This document shows, piece after piece, positions 7,291-27,388 of a DNA stretch of 33,962 bases (within the stretch, counting starts at the first letter, position 1; each line of letters starts with the position of its first letter). This DNA comes from Xanthomonas translucens pv. translucens DSM 18974. GTDB taxonomy: Bacteria > Pseudomonadota > Gammaproteobacteria > Xanthomonadales > Xanthomonadaceae. Below the pieces are notes generated by a model, which was not told where the DNA came from, made no database searches, and was given only the letters and a program-made list of their open reading frames with translations. Location: NCBI RefSeq assembly GCF_000331775.1, contig NZ_CAPJ01000337.1:1-33962 (forward strand). The letters are read 5' to 3'. A program made the position numbers and the translations under genes.

Positions 7291-7318
7291 GAATCCCCAC
7301 TCCCGAATCCCAAATCCC
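7291..7318. repeat. Degenerate heptanucleotide array
   Basis: Four consecutive 7-base units: GAATCCC, CACTCCC, GAATCCC, AAATCCC. They are a variant of the GAGTCCC/GGGACTC heptamers found at several junctions further right. The array lies directly after the 3' end of the DUF885 gene (stop at 7325-7327 on the minus strand). Confidence 0.6.
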
Positions 7319-18779: not shown

Positions 18780-18812
18780 CTCGGGACCCGGGACTCGGTA
18801 CCCGGGACTCGG
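18780..18812. repeat. Heptanucleotide array (GGGACTC type), single orientation
   Basis: Alternating GGGACCC and GGGACTC heptamers with one irregular unit, starting four bases after the hemJ stop. Unlike the arrays between accA and lpxA, I see no inverted partner beside it. The rest of the spacer to 18960 holds nothing I recognise. Confidence 0.7.
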
Positions 18813-19746: not shown

Positions 19747-20706
19747 TCAGGCCGCTTCGTACGCCCCGTAGCCGCGCAGGCGCTCGTAGCGCTTCTGCAG
19801 CAACTGCTCGACCGGCAGCTTTTCCAGCGCGTCCAGTTCGTTGAGCAGCACCGCCTTCAGGCGCCTGGCCATTTGCGTGGGGTTGCGGTGCGCGCCGCCG
19901 ATCGGCTCGCGCACCACCTTGTCGACCAGGCCCAGCGCGGACAAGCGCTTGGCGGTCAGGCCCAGTTGCTCGGCGGCGTCCTTGGCCTTGGCGGCGTCCT
20001 TCCACAGGATCGAGGCGCAGCCTTCCGGCGAGATCACCGAATAGGTGCCGTATTCCAGCATCAGCGTGCGGTCGCCGACGCCGATCGCCAGCGCGCCGCC
20101 GGAGCCGCCTTCGCCGATCACGGTGCAGATCACCGGCACTTTCAGTTCGGCCATCTCCAGCAGATTGCGCGCGATCGCCTCGCTCTGGCCGCGCTCTTCG
20201 GCGCCGATGCCGGGGTAGGCGCCGGGGGTGTCGATGAAGGTCAGCAGCGGCAGTTTGAAGCGCTCGGCCAGCTTCATCAGCCGCAGCGCCTTGCGGTAGC
20301 CCTCCGGACGCGGCATGCCGAAATTGCGCGCCACCTTGCTCTTGGTGTCGCGGCCCTTCTGGTGGCCGATGATGACCACCGGGCGCCCGTCGATGCGGCC
20401 CAGGCCGCCGACGATGGCCTTGTCGTCGGCGAACGCGCGATCGCCGGCCAGCTCCTGGAATTCGTCGCAGAACACGTTGATGTAGTCCAGCGTGTACGGC
20501 CGCTGCGGATGCCGCGCCAGCTGCGAGATCTGCCACGACGACAGGTCGCGGAAGATCTGCGCGGTGCGCACCCGCAGCTTGTCCTGCAGCGCGCGCACCT
20601 CGGTGTCGACGTTGACCGCCGGGCCGGTGCTGGCGTTGCGCAGTTCCTGGATCTTGGCTTCCAGATCGGCGATGGGTTGCTCGAAGTCGAGGTAGTTCGG
20701 ATTCAT
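19747..20706 (-). CDS. accA: Acetyl-CoA carboxylase carboxyltransferase subunit alpha
   Basis: A 319-residue AccA, the same length as the E. coli protein. With AccD it transfers the carboxyl group from carboxybiotin to acetyl-CoA, the first committed step of fatty acid synthesis, in the cytoplasm. Family blocks seen: [19 protein letters not shown] at the start, [76 protein letters not shown] and [19 protein letters not shown]. Start at the ATG 20706; no clear Shine-Dalgarno precedes it. It is separated from dnaE by 166 bp holding an inverted pair of heptamer arrays, wider than the other spacings in this operon. Confidence 0.97.
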
Positions 20707-20783: not shown

Positions 20784-20872
20784 CCGGGACCCACGACTCG
20801 GAACTCGGGACCCGGAAAGTCAAAGGCAACGGCCCTTGCTCTTACGGGTCCCGAGTCCCGGCTCCCGGCTCC
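20784..20872. repeat. Inverted pair of heptanucleotide arrays between dnaE and accA
   Basis: Left array 20784-20816 in the GGGACTC direction; right array 20845-20872 in the GAGTCCC direction. ACTCGGGACCCG (20803-20814) is the exact reverse complement of CGGGTCCCGAGT (20845-20856), with 30 bases between. In the dnaE-accA transcript this would fold as a GC-rich hairpin starting just before the dnaE stop codon region and ahead of accA. No T-run follows on the minus strand, so it is not a standard terminator. Confidence 0.8.
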
Positions 20873-23800
20873 TCACGCCCACGGCGGGCTGTACTTCACC
20901 TTCACCGCGCGCACGCCCGGATCGGCGCGCAGGGTGTCCAGTAGCTGCGGGTCCACGCGCACCGCGTGGCTGCCGTTGAGGTCGAGCATGCCGGCCACGG
21001 CGCCGTGTTCGGATTGCAGCAGCAGGTCCAGGCGCAGCGGCGTCTTGCCGGGGCGGTGGCGTGCCAGCAGCGCGTCGATGCGCTGCCAGGTGCTGCGCTG
21101 GCGCAGGTCCAGGCGCAGCGACAGGCGCTGCGCGTGGTGGGTGCAGATCTGTTCGTAGTCCCAGCACTGGCGGATGCGCATCGCATAGCCGCCGTTGAAT
21201 TCGTCCTCGCGCACGCCGCCCTTGACGATCAGGATGCGGTCGCGGGTGAGCAGGTGGCCGAACTCGGCGATGGCGTCGGTGAACGCGCTGCACTCGACCC
21301 GGCCGCGGCCGTCCTCGAGTTGCACGAACACCTGGCTGTCGCCCTTGCGCCGCACGCCGACCACCTGGCCGGCGAGGATCGCGCTGGTTTCCGGGCGCCA
21401 GGCGCGTTTTTCGCCGTCGCCGCCACCACCACCGCGTCCGCCGCCGGATTGCGCGCAGATCTTTTCCAGCGCGCTCAGGTCGCAGCCGACCAGCTCGCGC
21501 ACTTCCTCGCGGTAGGGATCGAACGGGTGGCCGCTGAGGTAGAAGCCCAGCGTCTCGCGCTCGCCGGTCAGCAACTGGCCCAGCGGCCATTCCTTGCTTT
21601 CCGACAGATCCAGGTGCAGCGCCGGGGCGCTGGTGTTGGCGCCGCCGAACAGCGAGTTCTGCCCGGAAGCGCGCTCGCGCGCCATCTGCTCGGTGGCCTT
21701 CATCACCTCCGGCAGCTGCAGCATCAGCGTGGCGCGGTTGCTGCCCAGCCCATCCATCGCGCCGGCGTTGATCAGCGCTTCCAGAGTACGCTTGTTGAGC
21801 TTGGCCGATTCCACGCGGGTGCAGAAATCCAGTAGCGAGGCGTATTCGCCGCCGCGCTCGCGCTCGGCCACGATTGCCTCGCAGGCGCCGCGGCCCACGC
21901 CCTTGATCGCGCCCAGGCCGTACTGAATGGTGTCCGGGGTGGCCGCTTCGAACATGTACGCCGAGGCGTTGAGCCGCGGCGGCAGCACGGTCAGGCCGAG
22001 GTTGCGCACCTCGTCGAGGAAGCCGACCACCTTGTCGGTGTTGTCCATGTCCGAGGACAGCGTCGCGGCCATGAACTCGGCCGGGTAGTGCCGCTTCAGC
22101 CACGCGGTCTGGTAGCTGACCAGCGCGTAGGCGGCGGCGTGTGACTTGTTGAAGCCGTAGCCGGCGAACTTCTCCATCAGGTCGAAGATTTCGTCGGCCT
22201 TGGCCTCGCCGACGCCGCCCTTGGCCGCGCCCTCGCGGAAGATCTCGCGGTGCTTGGCCATCTCCGCCGGCACCTTCTTGCCCATCGCGCGGCGCAACAG
22301 GTCGGCGCCGCCCAGCGAGTAGGCGCCGACGATCTGCGCCATCTGCATCACCTGCTCCTGGTACACCATGATGCCGTAGGTGTCTTTCAGGATCGCTTCG
22401 GTGCGCGGATCGGGATAGATGATCTCCTGCTGGCCGTGCTTGCGCGCGTTGAAGTCCGGGATCAGATCCATCGGCCCGGGGCGGTACAGCGACACCAGTG
22501 CGATCAGGTCTTCGAAGCGGTCGGGCTTGGCGTCCTTGAGCAGCCGGCGCATGCCCGAGGATTCGAACTGGAACACCGCGCCGGTGTTGCCCGAGGCGAA
22601 GATGCCCTTGTAGGTGGGCGCGTCGTCGAGCGGGATCGCGGTGATGTCCACCGGCGGGATGCCGGCGCGCGCATGGCGCACGTTGATTGCCTTCACCGCC
22701 CAGTCGATGATGGTCAGCGTGCGCAGGCCGAGGAAGTCGAACTTGACCAGGCCGACCTGCTCGACGTCGTCCTTGTCGAACTGGGTGACCGGGTTCTTGC
22801 CCAGGTTGTCGACGTCGTGTTCGGCGAACAGCGGGCAGAAATCGGACAGCGGCGTCGGCGCGATGACCACGCCGCCGGCGTGCTTGCCGGCGTTGCGGGT
22901 CAGGTCCTCCAGCTGCCGCGCCAGGTCCATCAGGTCGCGGACGTCGTCCTCGCTCTGGTAGCGCTGGATCAGCTCCGGCGAGGCCATCTCGCTGTCCTTG
23001 CCTTCGCCCATCGCGTCCTTCAGCGTGATGCCGAGGATGTTGGGGATCAGCTTGGCCACGCCGTCGACCAGGCCGTACGGGAAGCCGAGCACGCGGCCGC
23101 AGTCGCGCACCACCGCCTTGGCCGCCATGGTGCCGTAGGTGATGATCTGGCTGACCCGGTCGCGCCCGTATTTGCGCGCGACGTAGTCGATGACCTCGTC
23201 GCGGCGGTCCATGCAGAAGTCGATGTCGAAGTCGGGCATCGACACGCGTTCGGGATTGAGGAAGCGCTCGAACAGCAGGTTGTACGGCAGCGGATCCAGG
23301 TCGGTGATCTGCAGCGCCCACGCCACCAGCGAGCCGGCGCCGGAGCCGCGGCCCGGGCCGATCGGGATGCCCTGGTTCTTGCCCCACTGGATGAAGTCGG
23401 CCACGATCAGGAAGTAGCCGGGGAAGCCCATCTTGATGATCGTGTCCAGCTCGAATTCGAGCCGGTCGACGTAGTCCTGGCGGGTCTTGCCCGGCGCCAG
23501 CGGATTCTTCTCCAGGCGCGCGGCCAGGCCGTCGCGCGACTGGCTGCGGATCCAGCTGTCCAGGGTCTCGTTGTCGGGCACCGGATACGCGGGCAGGAAG
23601 TAGGTGCCCAACTGCATCTCGATGTTGCAGCGCTGCGCCAGCGCCAGCGTGTTGTCGAGCGCGTCGGGAATGTCGGCGAACAGCTCAGCCATTTCCTCCG
23701 ACGACTTCAGGTATTGCTGGTCGCTGTAGTCGCGCGGGCGCTTGGGGTCGTCGAGCACGCGGCCGGAGGAAATGCACACGCGCGCCTCGTGCGCGGCGAA

Positions 23801-24466
23801 ATCGCTGGCGTACAGGAAGCGCACGTCGTTGCTGGCCACCACCGGCAAGCCGCGGGTGCCGGCGGCATGCAGCGCGAACTGGTTGAACGCTTCCTCGCCG
23901 TCGCGGCCGGTGCGGGTCAGTTCCAGGTGCAGGCCGTCGCCGAAGATACGCTGCCAGTCGGCCAGTTGCTGCTCGGCCAGGTCGTGGCGGCCTTCGCTGG
24001 CCAGGCGTCCGGCCAGGCTGCTGCGCCCGGCCAGTGCGAACAGATTGTCGCTGCCGGTCTGCAGCCATTCCGGGCGGATCGCCACGCCGCCTTCGTTGCG
24101 GTGGCCTTCCAGCCAGGCGCGGGTCAGCAGCCGCGACAGGCTCAGATAGCCGTCGCGGTTGCGGCACAGCACGGTGAGCCGCCACGGCGTCTCGCCGGCG
24201 CTGTCTGCGATCAGCAGGTCGGCGCCGGCGATCGGCTTGATGCCGACGCCTTCGGCGGCCTTATAGAACTTGACCAGCGCGAACAGGTTGTTCAGGTCGG
24301 TGACTGCGAGCGCGGGCAACTCCAACTCGACCGCGCGGCTGAGCAGATTGGCCTGCTTGGCTTTCTTCGGGTCGGCCTGATCCGGTTTCTCGGGCACACG
24401 GATGGTCGAATCCGCCAGCGAGAACTCGGTGTGGACGTGCAGATGGGCGAAGCGGGAAGTGGACAT
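20873..24466 (-). CDS. dnaE: DNA polymerase III alpha subunit
   Basis: A 1197-residue replicative polymerase subunit (E. coli 1160). It starts with a PHP domain (HLHVHTEFSLADSTI), followed by the palm with catalytic aspartates D412 and D414 in PDFDIDF, and the GPGRGSGAGSLVAWAL nucleotide-binding region. Then come the fingers (YQEQVMQMAQIVGAYSLGGA; FAGYGFNKSHAAAYALVSYQ), helix-hairpin-helix and OB domains (GQVVGVRRKGDSQVFVQLED). A glycine-rich linker with a single arginine (S1007 to G1016, GGGRGGGGG) sits before the OB fold and accounts for part of the extra length. The ATG at 24466 matches the family start MSTSRFAHLH. Part of the lpxD-fabZ-lpxA-lpxB-rnhB-dnaE-accA block, as in E. coli. Confidence 0.98.
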   Translation of the reverse strand: MSTSRFAHLHVHTEFSLADSTIRVPEKPDQADPKKAKQANLLSRAVELELPALAVTDLNNLFALVKFYKAAEGVGIKPIAGADLLIADSAGETPWRLTVLCRNRDGYLSLSRLLTRAWLEGHRNEGGVAIRPEWLQTGSDNLFALAGRSSLAGRLASEGRHDLAEQQLADWQRIFGDGLHLELTRTGRDGEEAFNQFALHAAGTRGLPVVASNDVRFLYASDFAAHEARVCISSGRVLDDPKRPRDYSDQQYLKSSEEMAELFADIPDALDNTLALAQRCNIEMQLGTYFLPAYPVPDNETLDSWIRSQSRDGLAARLEKNPLAPGKTRQDYVDRLEFELDTIIKMGFPGYFLIVADFIQWGKNQGIPIGPGRGSGAGSLVAWALQITDLDPLPYNLLFERFLNPERVSMPDFDIDFCMDRRDEVIDYVARKYGRDRVSQIITYGTMAAKAVVRDCGRVLGFPYGLVDGVAKLIPNILGITLKDAMGEGKDSEMASPELIQRYQSEDDVRDLMDLARQLEDLTRNAGKHAGGVVIAPTPLSDFCPLFAEHDVDNLGKNPVTQFDKDDVEQVGLVKFDFLGLRTLTIIDWAVKAINVRHARAGIPPVDITAIPLDDAPTYKGIFASGNTGAVFQFESSGMRRLLKDAKPDRFEDLIALVSLYRPGPMDLIPDFNARKHGQQEIIYPDPRTEAILKDTYGIMVYQEQVMQMAQIVGAYSLGGADLLRRAMGKKVPAEMAKHREIFREGAAKGGVGEAKADEIFDLMEKFAGYGFNKSHAAAYALVSYQTAWLKRHYPAEFMAATLSSDMDNTDKVVGFLDEVRNLGLTVLPPRLNASAYMFEAATPDTIQYGLGAIKGVGRGACEAIVAERERGGEYASLLDFCTRVESAKLNKRTLEALINAGAMDGLGSNRATLMLQLPEVMKATEQMARERASGQNSLFGGANTSAPALHLDLSESKEWPLGQLLTGERETLGFYLSGHPFDPYREEVRELVGCDLSALEKICAQSGGGRGGGGGDGEKRAWRPETSAILAGQVVGVRRKGDSQVFVQLEDGRGRVECSAFTDAIAEFGHLLTRDRILIVKGGVREDEFNGGYAMRIRQCWDYEQICTHHAQRLSLRLDLRQRSTWQRIDALLARHRPGKTPLRLDLLLQSEHGAVAGMLDLNGSHAVRVDPQLLDTLRADPGVRAVKVKYSPPWA

Positions 24467-24530
24467 GCGAAACCAGAACGATGCCCGGGCAGGTTAGCGG
24501 CGGGGGCGGGGGCGGGCAAGGCTTGACAAG

Positions 24531-24660
24531 CTCGGGACTCGGGACCGGGGACTCGGGACCCGGTGGTCCGCCGCGTGCGGACCCTGTGCGCGCTGTTGCA
24601 GGCCGGAATCTATGCGCTCTGCGGCTGTTCCGGGTCCCGAGTCCCGAGTCCCGGGTCCCG
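24531..24660. repeat. Inverted pair of heptanucleotide arrays at the rnhB/dnaE junction
   Basis: Left array 24531-24562 (GGGACTC direction) lies between the genes; right array 24630-24660 (GAGTCCC direction) lies inside the 3' end of rnhB. ACTCGGGACCCGG (24551-24563) and CCGGGTCCCGAGT (24630-24642) are exact reverse complements, 66 bases apart. The right array encodes the RnhB C-terminal residues [12 protein letters not shown]. Confidence 0.8.
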
Positions 24661-25290
24661 CCCCAGCAACGCACGCCGCACCGGCGCGAAGCTACGCCGA
24701 TGCTGCGCGCACGGGCCGTGCGCGGCCAGCGCGGCCAGGTGCGCCGGGGTGGCGTAGCCCTTGTGCAGGTCGAAGCCGTAGTGCGGGTGCTGTGCGTGCA
24801 GGCGCTGCATGAGGCGGTCGCGGGTGACCTTGGCCACGATCGAGGCGGCCATGATCGCGCGGTCCAGGCCGTCGCCGCCGACCAGCGCCTCGGCGGCGCA
24901 GGGCAGGCCCTTGGGCACGCGGTTGCCGTCGATGCGCGCGAAACCGGCCACGTGCGCCACGCCCTCGACCGCGCGGCGCATGCCCAGCATGGTGGCCTGG
25001 TAGATGTTCAGCCGGTCGATCTCGTCGGCTTCGATCAGCACCACCTGCCAGGCCAGCGCACGCTCGACGATGCGCGCGTACAGCGTCTCGCGGCGCGCGG
25101 CGGTCAGCTGCTTGGAGTCGTCCAGGCCGTTGATGCGGGGGCGCGCCGGATCGAACACCACCGCGGCCACCGCGACGGGTCCGGCCAGCGGCCCGCGCCC
25201 GGCTTCGTCGACGCCGGCGTAGAGCCGGGACCGGGGACCGGGGACCGGGGACCCGGGAAAGAGCGTCAGTGCGAGATCTGTGGTTTTCAT
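24610..25290 (-). CDS. rnhB: Ribonuclease HII with repeat-encoded ends
   Basis: A 226-residue RNase HII, which removes ribonucleotides and RNA from RNA-DNA hybrids. The catalytic acidic pair D28-E29 is in [34 protein letters not shown] and [16 protein letters not shown] carry the other conserved acids; [20 protein letters not shown] is the family C-terminal motif. The start ATG at 25290 overlaps the lpxB stop as ATGA, which fixes it. Compared with E. coli (198 residues) there are about 12 extra residues at the N terminus ([13 protein letters not shown]) and 16 at the C terminus ([15 protein letters not shown]), both written by heptanucleotide arrays. Confidence 0.95.
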
Positions 25291-25334
25291 GGAATCCGCT
25301 GTTCCCGGTCCCCGGTCCCCGGTCCCTGGTCCCG
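25225..25334. repeat. Inverted pair of heptanucleotide arrays across the lpxB/rnhB overlap
   Basis: Left array 25225-25257 is in the variant unit GGGGACC and lies inside the rnhB 5' coding end. Right array 25304-25334 is in the opposite direction (GGTCCCC) and lies inside the lpxB 3' coding end. The two can pair over more than 20 bases. The lpxB stop and rnhB start (25287-25290, ATGA) lie in the loop between them. Confidence 0.82.
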
Positions 25335-26600
25335 CGGCACTCCGACCAACTCCGCCACCGCATCGGCCGCCCGCGCCGACGCATCCTGGCGCAGCAACTG
25401 ATGCAGCCGCGCGTAGTCGGGTTGCAGCGCGGCTACTGCCTGCGGATCGCGTAGCCAATGCAGCAGCGCGGCGGCGAGCGCGTCGGGAGTGCAGGCGTCC
25501 TGCATCAGTTCCGGCGCCAGGTCGCGGCCGGCGAGGATGTTGGGCAGTGCGTAGCGGTCGACCTTGAGCAGGCCCAGCGCCTTGACGAGGCGGTAGGTCA
25601 GCGGCGCTACCTTGTAGCCGACCACCATCGGCCGCTTCATCAGCATCGCCTCCAGTGTGGCGGTACCCGAGGCCAGCAGCACCACGTCGGCGGCGCGCAG
25701 GGCGGTGCGGGCCTGGCCGTCGAGCAGGTGCGAATACACCACCGGCAACGCCGAGCGCGATAGCTGCTCGGCCAGCAATGCCTTGCACGCGGGGTTGGCG
25801 GCCGGCACCACCACGTGCGCGCCCGGCAGCTCTTGCAGTACCTCCCAGGCGGCGGCGAAGAAGGTGTCGCCGAGCCGGCCGATCTCGCCCAGGCGGCTGC
25901 CCGGCAGCACCGCCAGCACGGTCGCGCCGGCCGGCAGGCCCAGTTCGGCGCGTGCCGCGCCTCGGTCCTCGTGCAGCGCGATCGCGTCGGCCATCGGGTG
26001 GCCGACGAAGCGCGCGTCCACGCCGTGCCTGGCGTAGATCGGCGGTTCCATCGGGAACAGGCACAGCACCAAGTCGGCGCTGGCACCGATCTTGGCCGCG
26101 CGCCGCTCGCGCCAGGCCCACACCGACGGACTCACGTAGTGCACGGTGCGGATGCCGCGCTGCTTGAGCCAGCGCTCCACGCCGAGGTTGAAGTCGGGCG
26201 CGTCGATGCCGACGAACACGTCCGGGCGCCAGTCCAGCAGGCGCTGGCGCAGCGTGCGGCGCAGTTGCAGCAGCCGCGGCAGATGCCGCAGCACCTCCAT
26301 CAGGCCCATCACCGCCAGTTCGCTGGCGTCGAACCAGGTCTGGCAGCCGGCGTTGCGCATCGCATCGCCGCCGATGCCGGCGAATTCGGCATCCGGGTAG
26401 CGCGCGCGCAACGCCTCGATCAGCCCGGCGCCAAGCTGGTCGCCGGAGGCTTCGCCAGCGACCAGGGCCACGCGCAGCTTCGCTGCGCCGGGACTCGGGG
26501 GGCGGGACTCGGGACTCGGAGCTCCGGCCAGGGAGCTGCGCGATGTCGTGCCGTTCCGGGTCCCGAGTCCCGAGTCCCGAGTCCCGGTTCCACTGTTCAT
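25287..26600 (-). CDS. lpxB: Lipid-A-disaccharide synthase with repeat-encoded N-terminal extension
   Basis: A 437-residue LpxB (E. coli 382), the peripheral membrane glycosyltransferase that joins UDP-2,3-diacylglucosamine and lipid X. The family start is reached only at residue 42 ([20 protein letters not shown]); other blocks are [17 protein letters not shown]-like [45 protein letters not shown] and [20 protein letters not shown]. The ATG at 26600 overlaps the lpxA stop as ATGA, so the extension is probably translated. The first 40 residues ([14 protein letters not shown], then [13 protein letters not shown]) and the last 15 ([15 protein letters not shown]) come from heptanucleotide arrays. 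They are Gly, Pro, Ser, Thr and Arg rich and probably disordered. Confidence 0.95.
26488..26587. repeat. Inverted pair of heptanucleotide arrays inside the lpxB 5' coding end
   Basis: Left array 26488-26519 (GGGACTC direction) and right array 26556-26587 (GAGTCCC direction, three perfect units). CGGGACTCGGGACTCGG and CCGAGTCCCGAGTCCCG are reverse complements across about 36 bases. Both arrays lie in frame within lpxB codons 4-38, after the ATGA overlap with lpxA. Confidence 0.85.
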
Positions 26601-27388
26601 CGCAACAACGGCCGCTCGCTGGCTTCGATGAATTCCAGCATCGCGCGCACGTCCTCGCTGTTTTCGGCCAGCACCGCCAGTTGCTGCTTGGCTTCGGCCA
26701 GCGGCAGGCCGGCCACGTACAGCGCGCGGTAGGCGCGCTTGATCGCGGCCAGGCGCTCGGTGTCGAACCCGCGGCGCTTCAGGCCTTCGCTGTTGATGCC
26801 GCGCGGGCGCCCCAGCGAGTTGCCGCCGACCATGGTGAACGGCGGCACGTCGCCGTTGATCAGCGCGCCCATGCCGAGGAAGGCGTGATCGCCGATGCGG
26901 CAGAACTGGTGCGCGCCGGCGAAGCCGCTGATGATCACGTGGTCGCCGACTTCGACATGCCCGGCCAAGGTGGTGTTGTTGGAGAACACGCAATGGTCGC
27001 CGACCACGCAATCGTGGGCGACGTGGGTGTAGGCCAGGAACCAGTTGTCGCTGCCGATGCGGGTGATGCCGCCGCCATTGCCGGTGCCGCGGCTGACGGT
27101 GACGAACTCGCGGATCACGTTGCGGTCGCCCATCACCAGTTCGGTGCGCTCGCCGGCGAACTTCTTGTCCTGCGGATCGCCGCCCAGCGCGACGTGGCCG
27201 ACCAGGTGGTTGTCGCGGCCGATCCGGGTCGGGCCGACGATGCTGCAATGCGAGCCGATCACGCTGCCTGCGCCGATGGCGACCTCGGCGCCGATCAGGC
27301 TGAAGGCGCCGACGCGCACATCCGCCGCCAGCGTCGCCGACGGATCGATCACCGCGGTGGGATGGATCAGAGGGACGTCGTCGCTCAT
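26597..27388 (-). CDS. lpxA: UDP-N-acetylglucosamine O-acyltransferase
   Basis: A 263-residue LpxA (E. coli 262), the cytoplasmic trimer that adds 3-hydroxyacyl chains to UDP-GlcNAc as the first step of lipid A synthesis. The left-handed beta-helix hexapeptides are clear throughout. Catalytic H125 (THVAHDC), H144 (LAGHVEV) and H160 (AGAHQFC) fall at the E. coli positions. At the acyl-chain ruler position 173, glycine in E. coli, this protein has methionine (FLGMGAL). That residue selects ten-carbon chains in Pseudomonas and in the E. coli G173M mutant, so a short 3-hydroxyacyl chain is predicted. The ATG at 27388 has AGGAGA six bases upstream; fabZ ends 19 bp before it. Confidence 0.97.

Follow-up and report, generated by a model that had tools for sequence, protein, structure and literature searches.

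The stretch of DNA considered here, 33,962 nucleotides of Xanthomonas translucens pv. translucens DSM 18974 (contig NZ_CAPJ01000337.1; hereafter the window), raises a specific question: what are the G-rich heptanucleotide arrays that stand in inverted pairs at four consecutive junctions of one essential operon, and what keeps them there? On the minus strand the genes run fabZ, lpxA, lpxB, rnhB, dnaE, accA, and the arrays occupy the last four junctions, from lpxA to accA; two unpaired arrays stand elsewhere. The window cassettes (two arms and the loop between them) are a variant-dialect branch of a palindromic heptamer repeat that is dispersed in Xanthomonas and some relatives. What appears to be new is the combination of fixed junctions, cassettes that are respelled from species to species, and largely one prevailing dialect per genome.

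The arrays are real, polar and paired at the four junctions, as a first-pass annotation of the sequence had described them and as direct reading, a regular-expression scan and a heptamer weight-matrix scan all confirm. Specifically, the regular expression finds 8 arrays of at least three units in the window (100 dinucleotide shuffles: mean 0.05, maximum 1), and the weight matrix finds 10 arms at thresholds 9 to 12, compared with 0 in the reversed-sequence control. The opposite directions of left and right arrays also hold: all four pairs are convergent, with the G-rich arm first and gaps between scored arms of 30, 32, 33 and 63 bases. The accA/dnaE pair has a degenerate left arm at 20786..20813 (G-rich on the plus strand; weight-matrix scan) and a right arm at 20846..20880 (minus strand), which as scored extends past the dnaE stop at 20873; this right arm and all arms of the other three pairs were found by both scans. 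The dnaE/rnhB pair lies at 24534..24561 (plus strand, intergenic) and 24625..24659 (minus strand, within the 3′ end of the rnhB frame), the rnhB/lpxB pair at 25227..25261 (plus strand, GGGACCG dialect, within the N-terminal frame of rnhB) and 25292..25333 (minus strand, within the C-terminal frame of lpxB), and the lpxB/lpxA pair at 26490..26524 (plus strand) and 26558..26592 (minus strand), both within the N-terminal frame of lpxB and the latter directly after its ATGA start. The claim that the pairs mark junctions stands for all four, but not all of them lie between genes, arms being partly within the rnhB and lpxB frames. The dialects of the window are GGGACTC, GGGACCC and GGGACCG. The two further arrays, found by the weight-matrix scan, are indeed unpaired, at 7291..7318 (minus strand, GGGATTC dialect) and 18783..18810 (plus strand, GGGACCC/GGGACTC); both lie between convergent genes, according to gene models that come from a simple codon-usage gene caller and not from curated annotation. 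The operon is densely populated, with 8 arms within 6 kb; among 20-kb stretches sampled from two relatives, forty from the nearest genome compared hold at most 5 arms each and twenty from the other at most 4.

Beyond the window, an arm has approximately the form (GCC or GTC)-(GGGANYS)n, the triplet often standing at its outer end and, in a minority, the inner motif GNAANAGC following; it often begins just after a stop codon, and a pair is two such arms face to face, G-rich strand first. The polarity is strong. A pattern search for pairs in 20 genomes from the nearest genus gives 933 hits in G-first order and 33 in C-first order (hits overlap), several of the latter between tandem duplicates, and the reversed-pattern controls give 0 and 3. 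At a threshold of 10, 800 kb of genome G001 hold 60 arms and 400 kb of genome G004 hold 39, compared with 4 and 0 in the reversed control. Opposite neighbours no more than 400 bases apart are G-first without exception, in 11/11 cases in G001, 14/14 in G004 and 105/105 in the named loci. An arm starts within 9 bases of a stop triplet in 32/60, 13/39 and 5/10 cases (G001, G004 and the window; background about 10%), and GNAANAGC lies downstream of arms in 19/56 and 7/37 cases, compared with 53 of 8000 random windows. The first-pass annotation had named mostly single, randomly oriented arrays as a sign against its reading, and on this point the outcome is mixed. Single arms are indeed common (38/60 in G001, 11/39 in G004), but the close neighbours all keep the G-first order. 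Paired arms make up 22/60, 28/39 and, in 32 named loci, 210/247; a hidden partner was detected downstream of 13 of 36 G001 singles and upstream of 1 of 36, and in G004 downstream of 0 of 10 and upstream of 1 of 10. The arm end GGGANYSGNAANAGC occurs 37–74 times per strand (control 0–5) in 8 of 9 same-genus genomes, the exception being a 3.5-Mb genome; within the family, some genera besides this one also have it at high frequency, and in most others it is at control level. Overlapping dimer hits number 497–1029 in 18 of the 20 genomes. The other two, G002 and G013 (3.5–3.7 Mb, nearest genus), are nearly repeat-free, with 16 and 8 dimer hits and 2 pair hits each.

The same junctions keep their pairs across species, and it is the spelling that changes. 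Among the Xanthomonas loci (35 named loci plus the window; L065, from Xanthomonas sp. XNM01 and lacking arms at lpxA/lpxB, was grouped with the others), a pair is present at lpxA/lpxB in 33/36, at lpxB/rnhB in 32/35 and at dnaE/accA in 26/33; for these counts, and for the fit of own and swapped arms discussed below, junctions longer than 700 bases were trimmed to 700, and they were excluded from the frame and loop analyses. Dialect was read from heptamer position 5 as A (GGGAAT), T (GGGATT) or C (GGGAC), and for the dialect tests a pair counted only if both of its arms belong to the same one of these three. Such agreement is the rule, holding in 15/16, 10/12 and 98/124 pairs. Cassettes are replaced between dialects, usually both arms and the loop together, inside flanks that are 92–99% identical. 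At a given junction, both arms can differ in dialect between species whose flanks are 1–7% apart. For three species pairs at about 95% identity (flanks of switched sites 95–99%), 25 comparisons made in both directions give 13 changed, 11 the same and 1 absent; of the 13, one reflects a partner arm that scored below threshold, and two come from a single element that switched in its G arm alone. The window and X. bonasiae are closely related (96% identity in LpxA, with a dnaE tree also placing them together), and they share three pairs and one single array, all four of which differ, C versus T, between flanks 92–98% identical, the single array being scored from the X. bonasiae side only because on the window side the flanks overlap and no arm is scored. 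The loops of these pairs are at about shuffled identity in two of three and slightly above it in the third, and the dnaE/rnhB site of X. bonasiae has no scored arm and a gap of 1083 bases. Over 400 kb, G001 and G015 (flanks 94.5% identical) show the same behaviour: of 20 G001 elements that could be mapped, 16 have a partner in place and 9 of these 16 are switched, one in one arm only, and in reverse 14/18 have a partner and 9/14 are switched. Here 11 of 31 G001 elements have no mapped flanks and 1 of 19 G015 elements has its flanks apart, and cases scored as lacking an arm are over-counted, two of three aligned ones holding an arm of another dialect. Outside Xanthomonas, the lpxA/lpxB junctions of L097 and L102 (Lysobacteraceae bacterium NML93) have pairs in a further dialect, GTGATTC.

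It is informative to consider the spelling of a junction in light of the genome around it. Genomes prefer a dialect and have switched it repeatedly on the tree: dimer counts for T, A and C are 23, 43 and 570 in G001, 450, 89 and 110 in G015 and 150, 394 and 1 in G008, most genomes having more than one dialect. With two genomes of fewer than 100 dimers left out, the dialect at a junction tracks its share of the genome, with a mean share of 0.63 compared with 0.33 when shuffled for lpxA/lpxB (n=15), 0.58 and 0.31 for lpxB/rnhB (n=17), and 0.55 and 0.41 for rnhB/dnaE (n=7); these permutations, like those that follow for linked loci, ignore kinship. Agreement also extends to loci separated by 1 to 16 kb, with 20/26 at 10 kb compared with 12.1 shuffled, and 16/22 at 16 kb, which alone is not significant (P 0.065). 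On a tree built from 15.8 kb, dialect changes 8–10 times per junction, compared with 8.6–12.2 in shuffles (fractions 0.07 to 0.41), and for the majority dialect a minimum of 7 changes is counted across the window and 18 genomes (the C label of the window being that of its own arms), compared with 8.1 in shuffles. A test of linked change on independent pairs leans largely in one direction (4.0 same and 0 opposite, in one instance), with too few pairs for significance. Dialect is largely genome-wide and hardly follows the species tree.

These data bear on the possibility that a few old cassette alleles at each junction circulate between species by homologous recombination. Loops at one junction are 0.66 identical across species when the dialect is the same, compared with 0.46 when it differs and 0.42 when shuffled, and this likeness speaks for such exchange at some junctions, as do the closely similar flanks of the switched sites in the three close species pairs. 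Nonetheless, exchange would leave unexplained both the sharing of dialect by loci 1 to 16 kb apart without clear decay and the power of the genome-wide share to predict the dialect of a junction. Loops of the C dialect are unrelated at lpxA/lpxB (0.31, n=4), but reach 0.52 (n=5) at lpxB/rnhB. On balance we regard between-species exchange as the strongest of the competing accounts, and still as a rather doubtful one.

The repeat has a clear antecedent. In the accessible parts of Rehm et al. 2015 (PMC4692102), 186/183 arrays of G-rich heptamers are reported from two Xanthomonas genomes, with 70/75 cases of convergent pairs, and the legend of their Figure 1 lists dnaE among the genes associated with the GGGAATC repeats. 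The inverted-pair layout, which the first-pass annotation had taken to be new, is therefore already in print. As in those repeats, the heptamers here are tandem, G-rich, mostly intergenic, near the ends of open reading frames and about four units long, with convergent inverted pairs, large dispersed numbers and the association with dnaE. In contrast, GGGAATC itself is present in 0/10 window arms (6/60 in G001, 3/39 in G004), such that the definition given there (at least 14 bases with at least one GGGAATC unit) does not cover the window arrays. The orthologous junctions of other species do hold GGGAATC arms, however, which identifies the window arms as positional variants of the published repeats. 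The inner motif, the turnover of cassettes and the genome-wide switching of dialect set our elements apart from the repeats as that text describes them. Its discussion leaves their functional role still to be elucidated, and among the literature matches listed none after 2015 takes up their nature or function, although two strain-typing papers there contain the word GGGAATC. The same source reports no heptamer repeats on two other plasmids; the arm consensus does match the plasmid records NZ_CP010410.1 (508,653 bases, X. sacchari, 4 places) and NZ_CP021000.1 (a 5,709-base plasmid of X. citri pv. phaseoli var. fuscans). The Nostoc repeats GGGGA(C/T)T, as quoted there, are likewise G-rich intergenic heptamers, but only a few inverted pairs are reported for them.

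Given this dispersal, it is natural to ask whether the cassettes move. A mobile element resembling repetitive extragenic palindromic (REP) sequences or miniature inverted-repeat transposable elements would have a putative mobilising enzyme and a target just after stop codons, with the dialects as successive active subfamilies. Recurrent arm ends (outer GCC or GTC and the inner motif), replacement of whole cassettes and starts at stop codons are consistent with it. Moreover, REP sequences and bacterial interspersed mosaic elements, which go with REP-associated tyrosine transposases (RAYTs), are also dispersed, palindromic, extragenic and single or paired in the available accounts (Nunvar et al. 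2010, PMC2817692; PMC3733652). However, the Xanthomonas REPs shown in the accessible part of Nunvar et al. 2010 (PMC2817692) are of a different sequence, with GTAG, and start GTAGGAGCGC, which the heptamer arms do not. GTAG is found in the 9 bases before an arm in 6/60, 4/39 and 1/10 cases, above the background of 2–3% and yet no general tag, and CGTC in 2/60, 1/39 and 0/10. The core motif is absent from all 14 RAYT (PF01797) loci of 8 genomes within the 1.5 kb of flank searched (one of the 14 is a match below cut-off, two have an internal stop, and one has two words resembling the heptamer dimer), and with this and the different published sequence, an origin from RAYTs and their REPs finds no support. 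Beside one RAYT gene, at L138:1921-1984, stands a perfect 25-base inverted repeat of GTAGGAGCGGCTTC type, apparently that gene's own REP. Target duplication is not apparent at three aligned sites, a search of a phage collection with one cassette gave no match, and successive active subfamilies would account for the dialects but not for the return of new elements to old addresses. Placement is also telling. In G001, the 40 intergenic elements are divided 21, 17 and 2 among co-directional, convergent and divergent junctions, compared with 282, 75 and 81 of all 438 junctions, such that convergent gene ends are over-used (17/40 and 75/438) and divergent junctions avoided; G004, with few elements, leans the same way (14, 6 and 1 elements; 145, 39 and 45 junctions). 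Of the readings offered in the first-pass annotation, that of a mobile repeat with a preference for operon junctions comes nearest to the data, in its stop-proximal starts and its replacement as a unit, but not in the preference itself. We consider an enzyme-driven element of the REP-like kind unlikely.

Where cassettes overlap genes, the reading frames are preserved. In the window, both arms of the lpxA/lpxB cassette are within the lpxB frame (25287..26600, minus strand; Pfam LpxB), the lpxB/rnhB cassette has its arms in the terminal parts of the two frames, on either side of the overlapping stop and start (ATGA, 25287..25290, minus strand), and one arm of the rnhB/dnaE cassette is within the rnhB frame (24610..25290, minus strand). 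The lpxB product thus appears to have array-encoded N- and C-terminal extensions and the rnhB product array-encoded ends. In 36/36 Xanthomonas loci, the lpxA/lpxB junction offers a possible lpxB start at an ATGA overlapping the lpxA stop, with the frame open throughout, and its 11 distinct lengths are all equal modulo 3. At lpxB/rnhB, rnhB has a start (ATGA, GTGA or TTGA) overlapping the lpxB stop in 35/35 loci with both frames open, and the 10 distinct lengths are again equal modulo 3. This rule was not found at the three other junctions. Because the frames stay open through the cassettes, LpxB and RnhB appear to have repeat-encoded ends wherever a cassette is present; in the window, 26558-26600 and 25287-25333 encode low-complexity residues of this origin in their open frames, and the annotated starts and termini of these proteins in these species take in repeat-encoded residues. 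That arrays are stop-free, which the first-pass annotation had singled out, is no special trait, as 56 of the 64 possible GGGANNN arrays have no stop in any of the six frames. The neighbouring genes, all on the minus strand, are lpxA (26597..27388; Pfam Acetyltransf_11 and Hexapep), dnaE (20873..24466; Pfam DNA_pol3_alpha and others) and the frame at 19747..20706, checked by tblastn in relatives, which we take to be accA, as in the first-pass annotation; the rnhB name is presumed on the same grounds, a Pfam query of another frame at that place giving no domain. Pfam domains in the window are FabA-like, LpxA, LpxB and DnaE.

The cassettes might instead be an RNA device of the operon, in which hairpins are selected in the mRNA for processing, as a stability barrier or as a gate coupling translation at the rnhB start, and set steps of expression. 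The earlier statement that the pairs can fold in mRNA is well supported by prediction: folded as RNA, the four give −66.5, −90, −83 and −76 kcal/mol (z −5.8 to −7.4), and 0/200 shuffles do as well. Three of the four junctions retain the position in most Xanthomonas loci, the lpxB stop and rnhB start overlap in every locus compared, with AGGAG before the overlap in 23/35 loci though not in the window, and own arms pair better than arms swapped between species when all dialects are pooled. That advantage arises largely because both arms share one dialect. In same-dialect swaps, restricted to dialects with more than two members, the six sets give P values of 0.004, 0.28, 0.023, 0.93, 0.076 and 0.98, significant in two and not in the other four. 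Furthermore, no excess of G·U over A·C is seen on the transcribed strand (65 and 73), the remaining arm mismatches are mostly C·C or G·G, and no family of Rfam 15 (curated RNA families) matches the window at gathering score. Many elements also lie outside operons, with convergent ends enriched in G001 as described above. At the level of base pairs, then, there seems to be little sign of RNA selection on the hairpin, although a weak pairing constraint is possible. An intrinsic (Rho-independent) terminator would share the stable G+C-rich hairpin and the 3′ ends of genes, but the location in an essential operon and in reading frames is unlike one, and we reject this candidate on the lack of a T-run after any pair end (0/22 and 0/28, hence 0/50). 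The function in mRNA processing or expression steps that had been suggested finds no support in the swaps, the G·U count or the T-run search, and judging from such sequence comparisons an RNA device of the operon is improbable.

A related possibility is that the four GGG tracts of each arm are selected as a G-quadruplex acting in DNA or RNA. The available text of Rehm et al. 2015 (PMC4692102) stresses this property and reports that GGGAATC repeats form such structures in vitro, and heptamer positions 1–3 are G in 97, 94 and 89% of cases, although the matrix used to find the arms rewards these letters. But position 4 is A just as consistently (97%, with the same caveat), which a quadruplex does not need, and four intact tracts are present in only 7/10 arms of the window and 27/60 and 24/39 of those sampled. 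Nor would a quadruplex predict inverted pairing or the agreement of dialect between arms. On sequence grounds, selection for G-quadruplexes may be set down as quite improbable.

The best explanation overall, to which we give about an even chance, is a dispersed palindromic repeat whose cassettes are replaced between dialects at fixed addresses, likely by break-and-copy between elements of the genome. The palindrome would extrude at replication and be cut; SbcCD-type nucleases cleave extruded palindromes. Both 3′ ends flanking the break would be G-rich heptamer strands and could invade another element, whereupon repair would put a new loop and the prevailing dialect of the genome at the old address. 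Break-and-copy would account for the polarity, because both 3′ ends at such a break are the G-rich strands, as well as for the joint change of arms and loop and the drift toward the prevailing dialect. We favour this mechanism only weakly, and hold the identity and behaviour of the repeat far more firmly. The mRNA hairpin follows from the palindromic build, and we infer that the cassette is mainly a tolerated repeat and not a dedicated operon switch.

Several observations weigh against this explanation. The rnhB/dnaE junction has a pair in only 9/33 Xanthomonas loci, 26/124 pairs are not concordant in dialect, and about half of the shared elements retain theirs. No donor was found, the loops of one genome at different loci being barely above shuffles (11 and 13 loops), and the likeness of same-junction, same-dialect loops fits allele exchange instead. 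The dnaE tree gives a weak dialect signal at lpxA/lpxB (P 0.035; 0.07 on the longer tree) and none at the other two junctions. Own arms of one dialect fit somewhat better at lpxA/lpxB (P 0.004) and rnhB/dnaE (P 0.023), with a third set at 0.076, from which a weak pairing constraint may follow. Finally, a neutral repeat leaves the high density of arms in this operon unexplained. By analogy with the logic of telomere repeats, one can also imagine a trans-acting activity bearing a template or specificity that would periodically respell hundreds of fixed sites genome-wide, an idea that we regard as very unlikely. If it were true, a change in one factor would switch the dialect of most sites and leave their addresses and number unchanged.

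Fixed addresses with an interchangeable spelling that is shared across the genome are not what a plain microsatellite, a hairpin signal or a transposon would predict. The pattern makes two questions testable: how a genome comes by its dialect, and by what agency that dialect is copied into essential operons with the reading frames intact.

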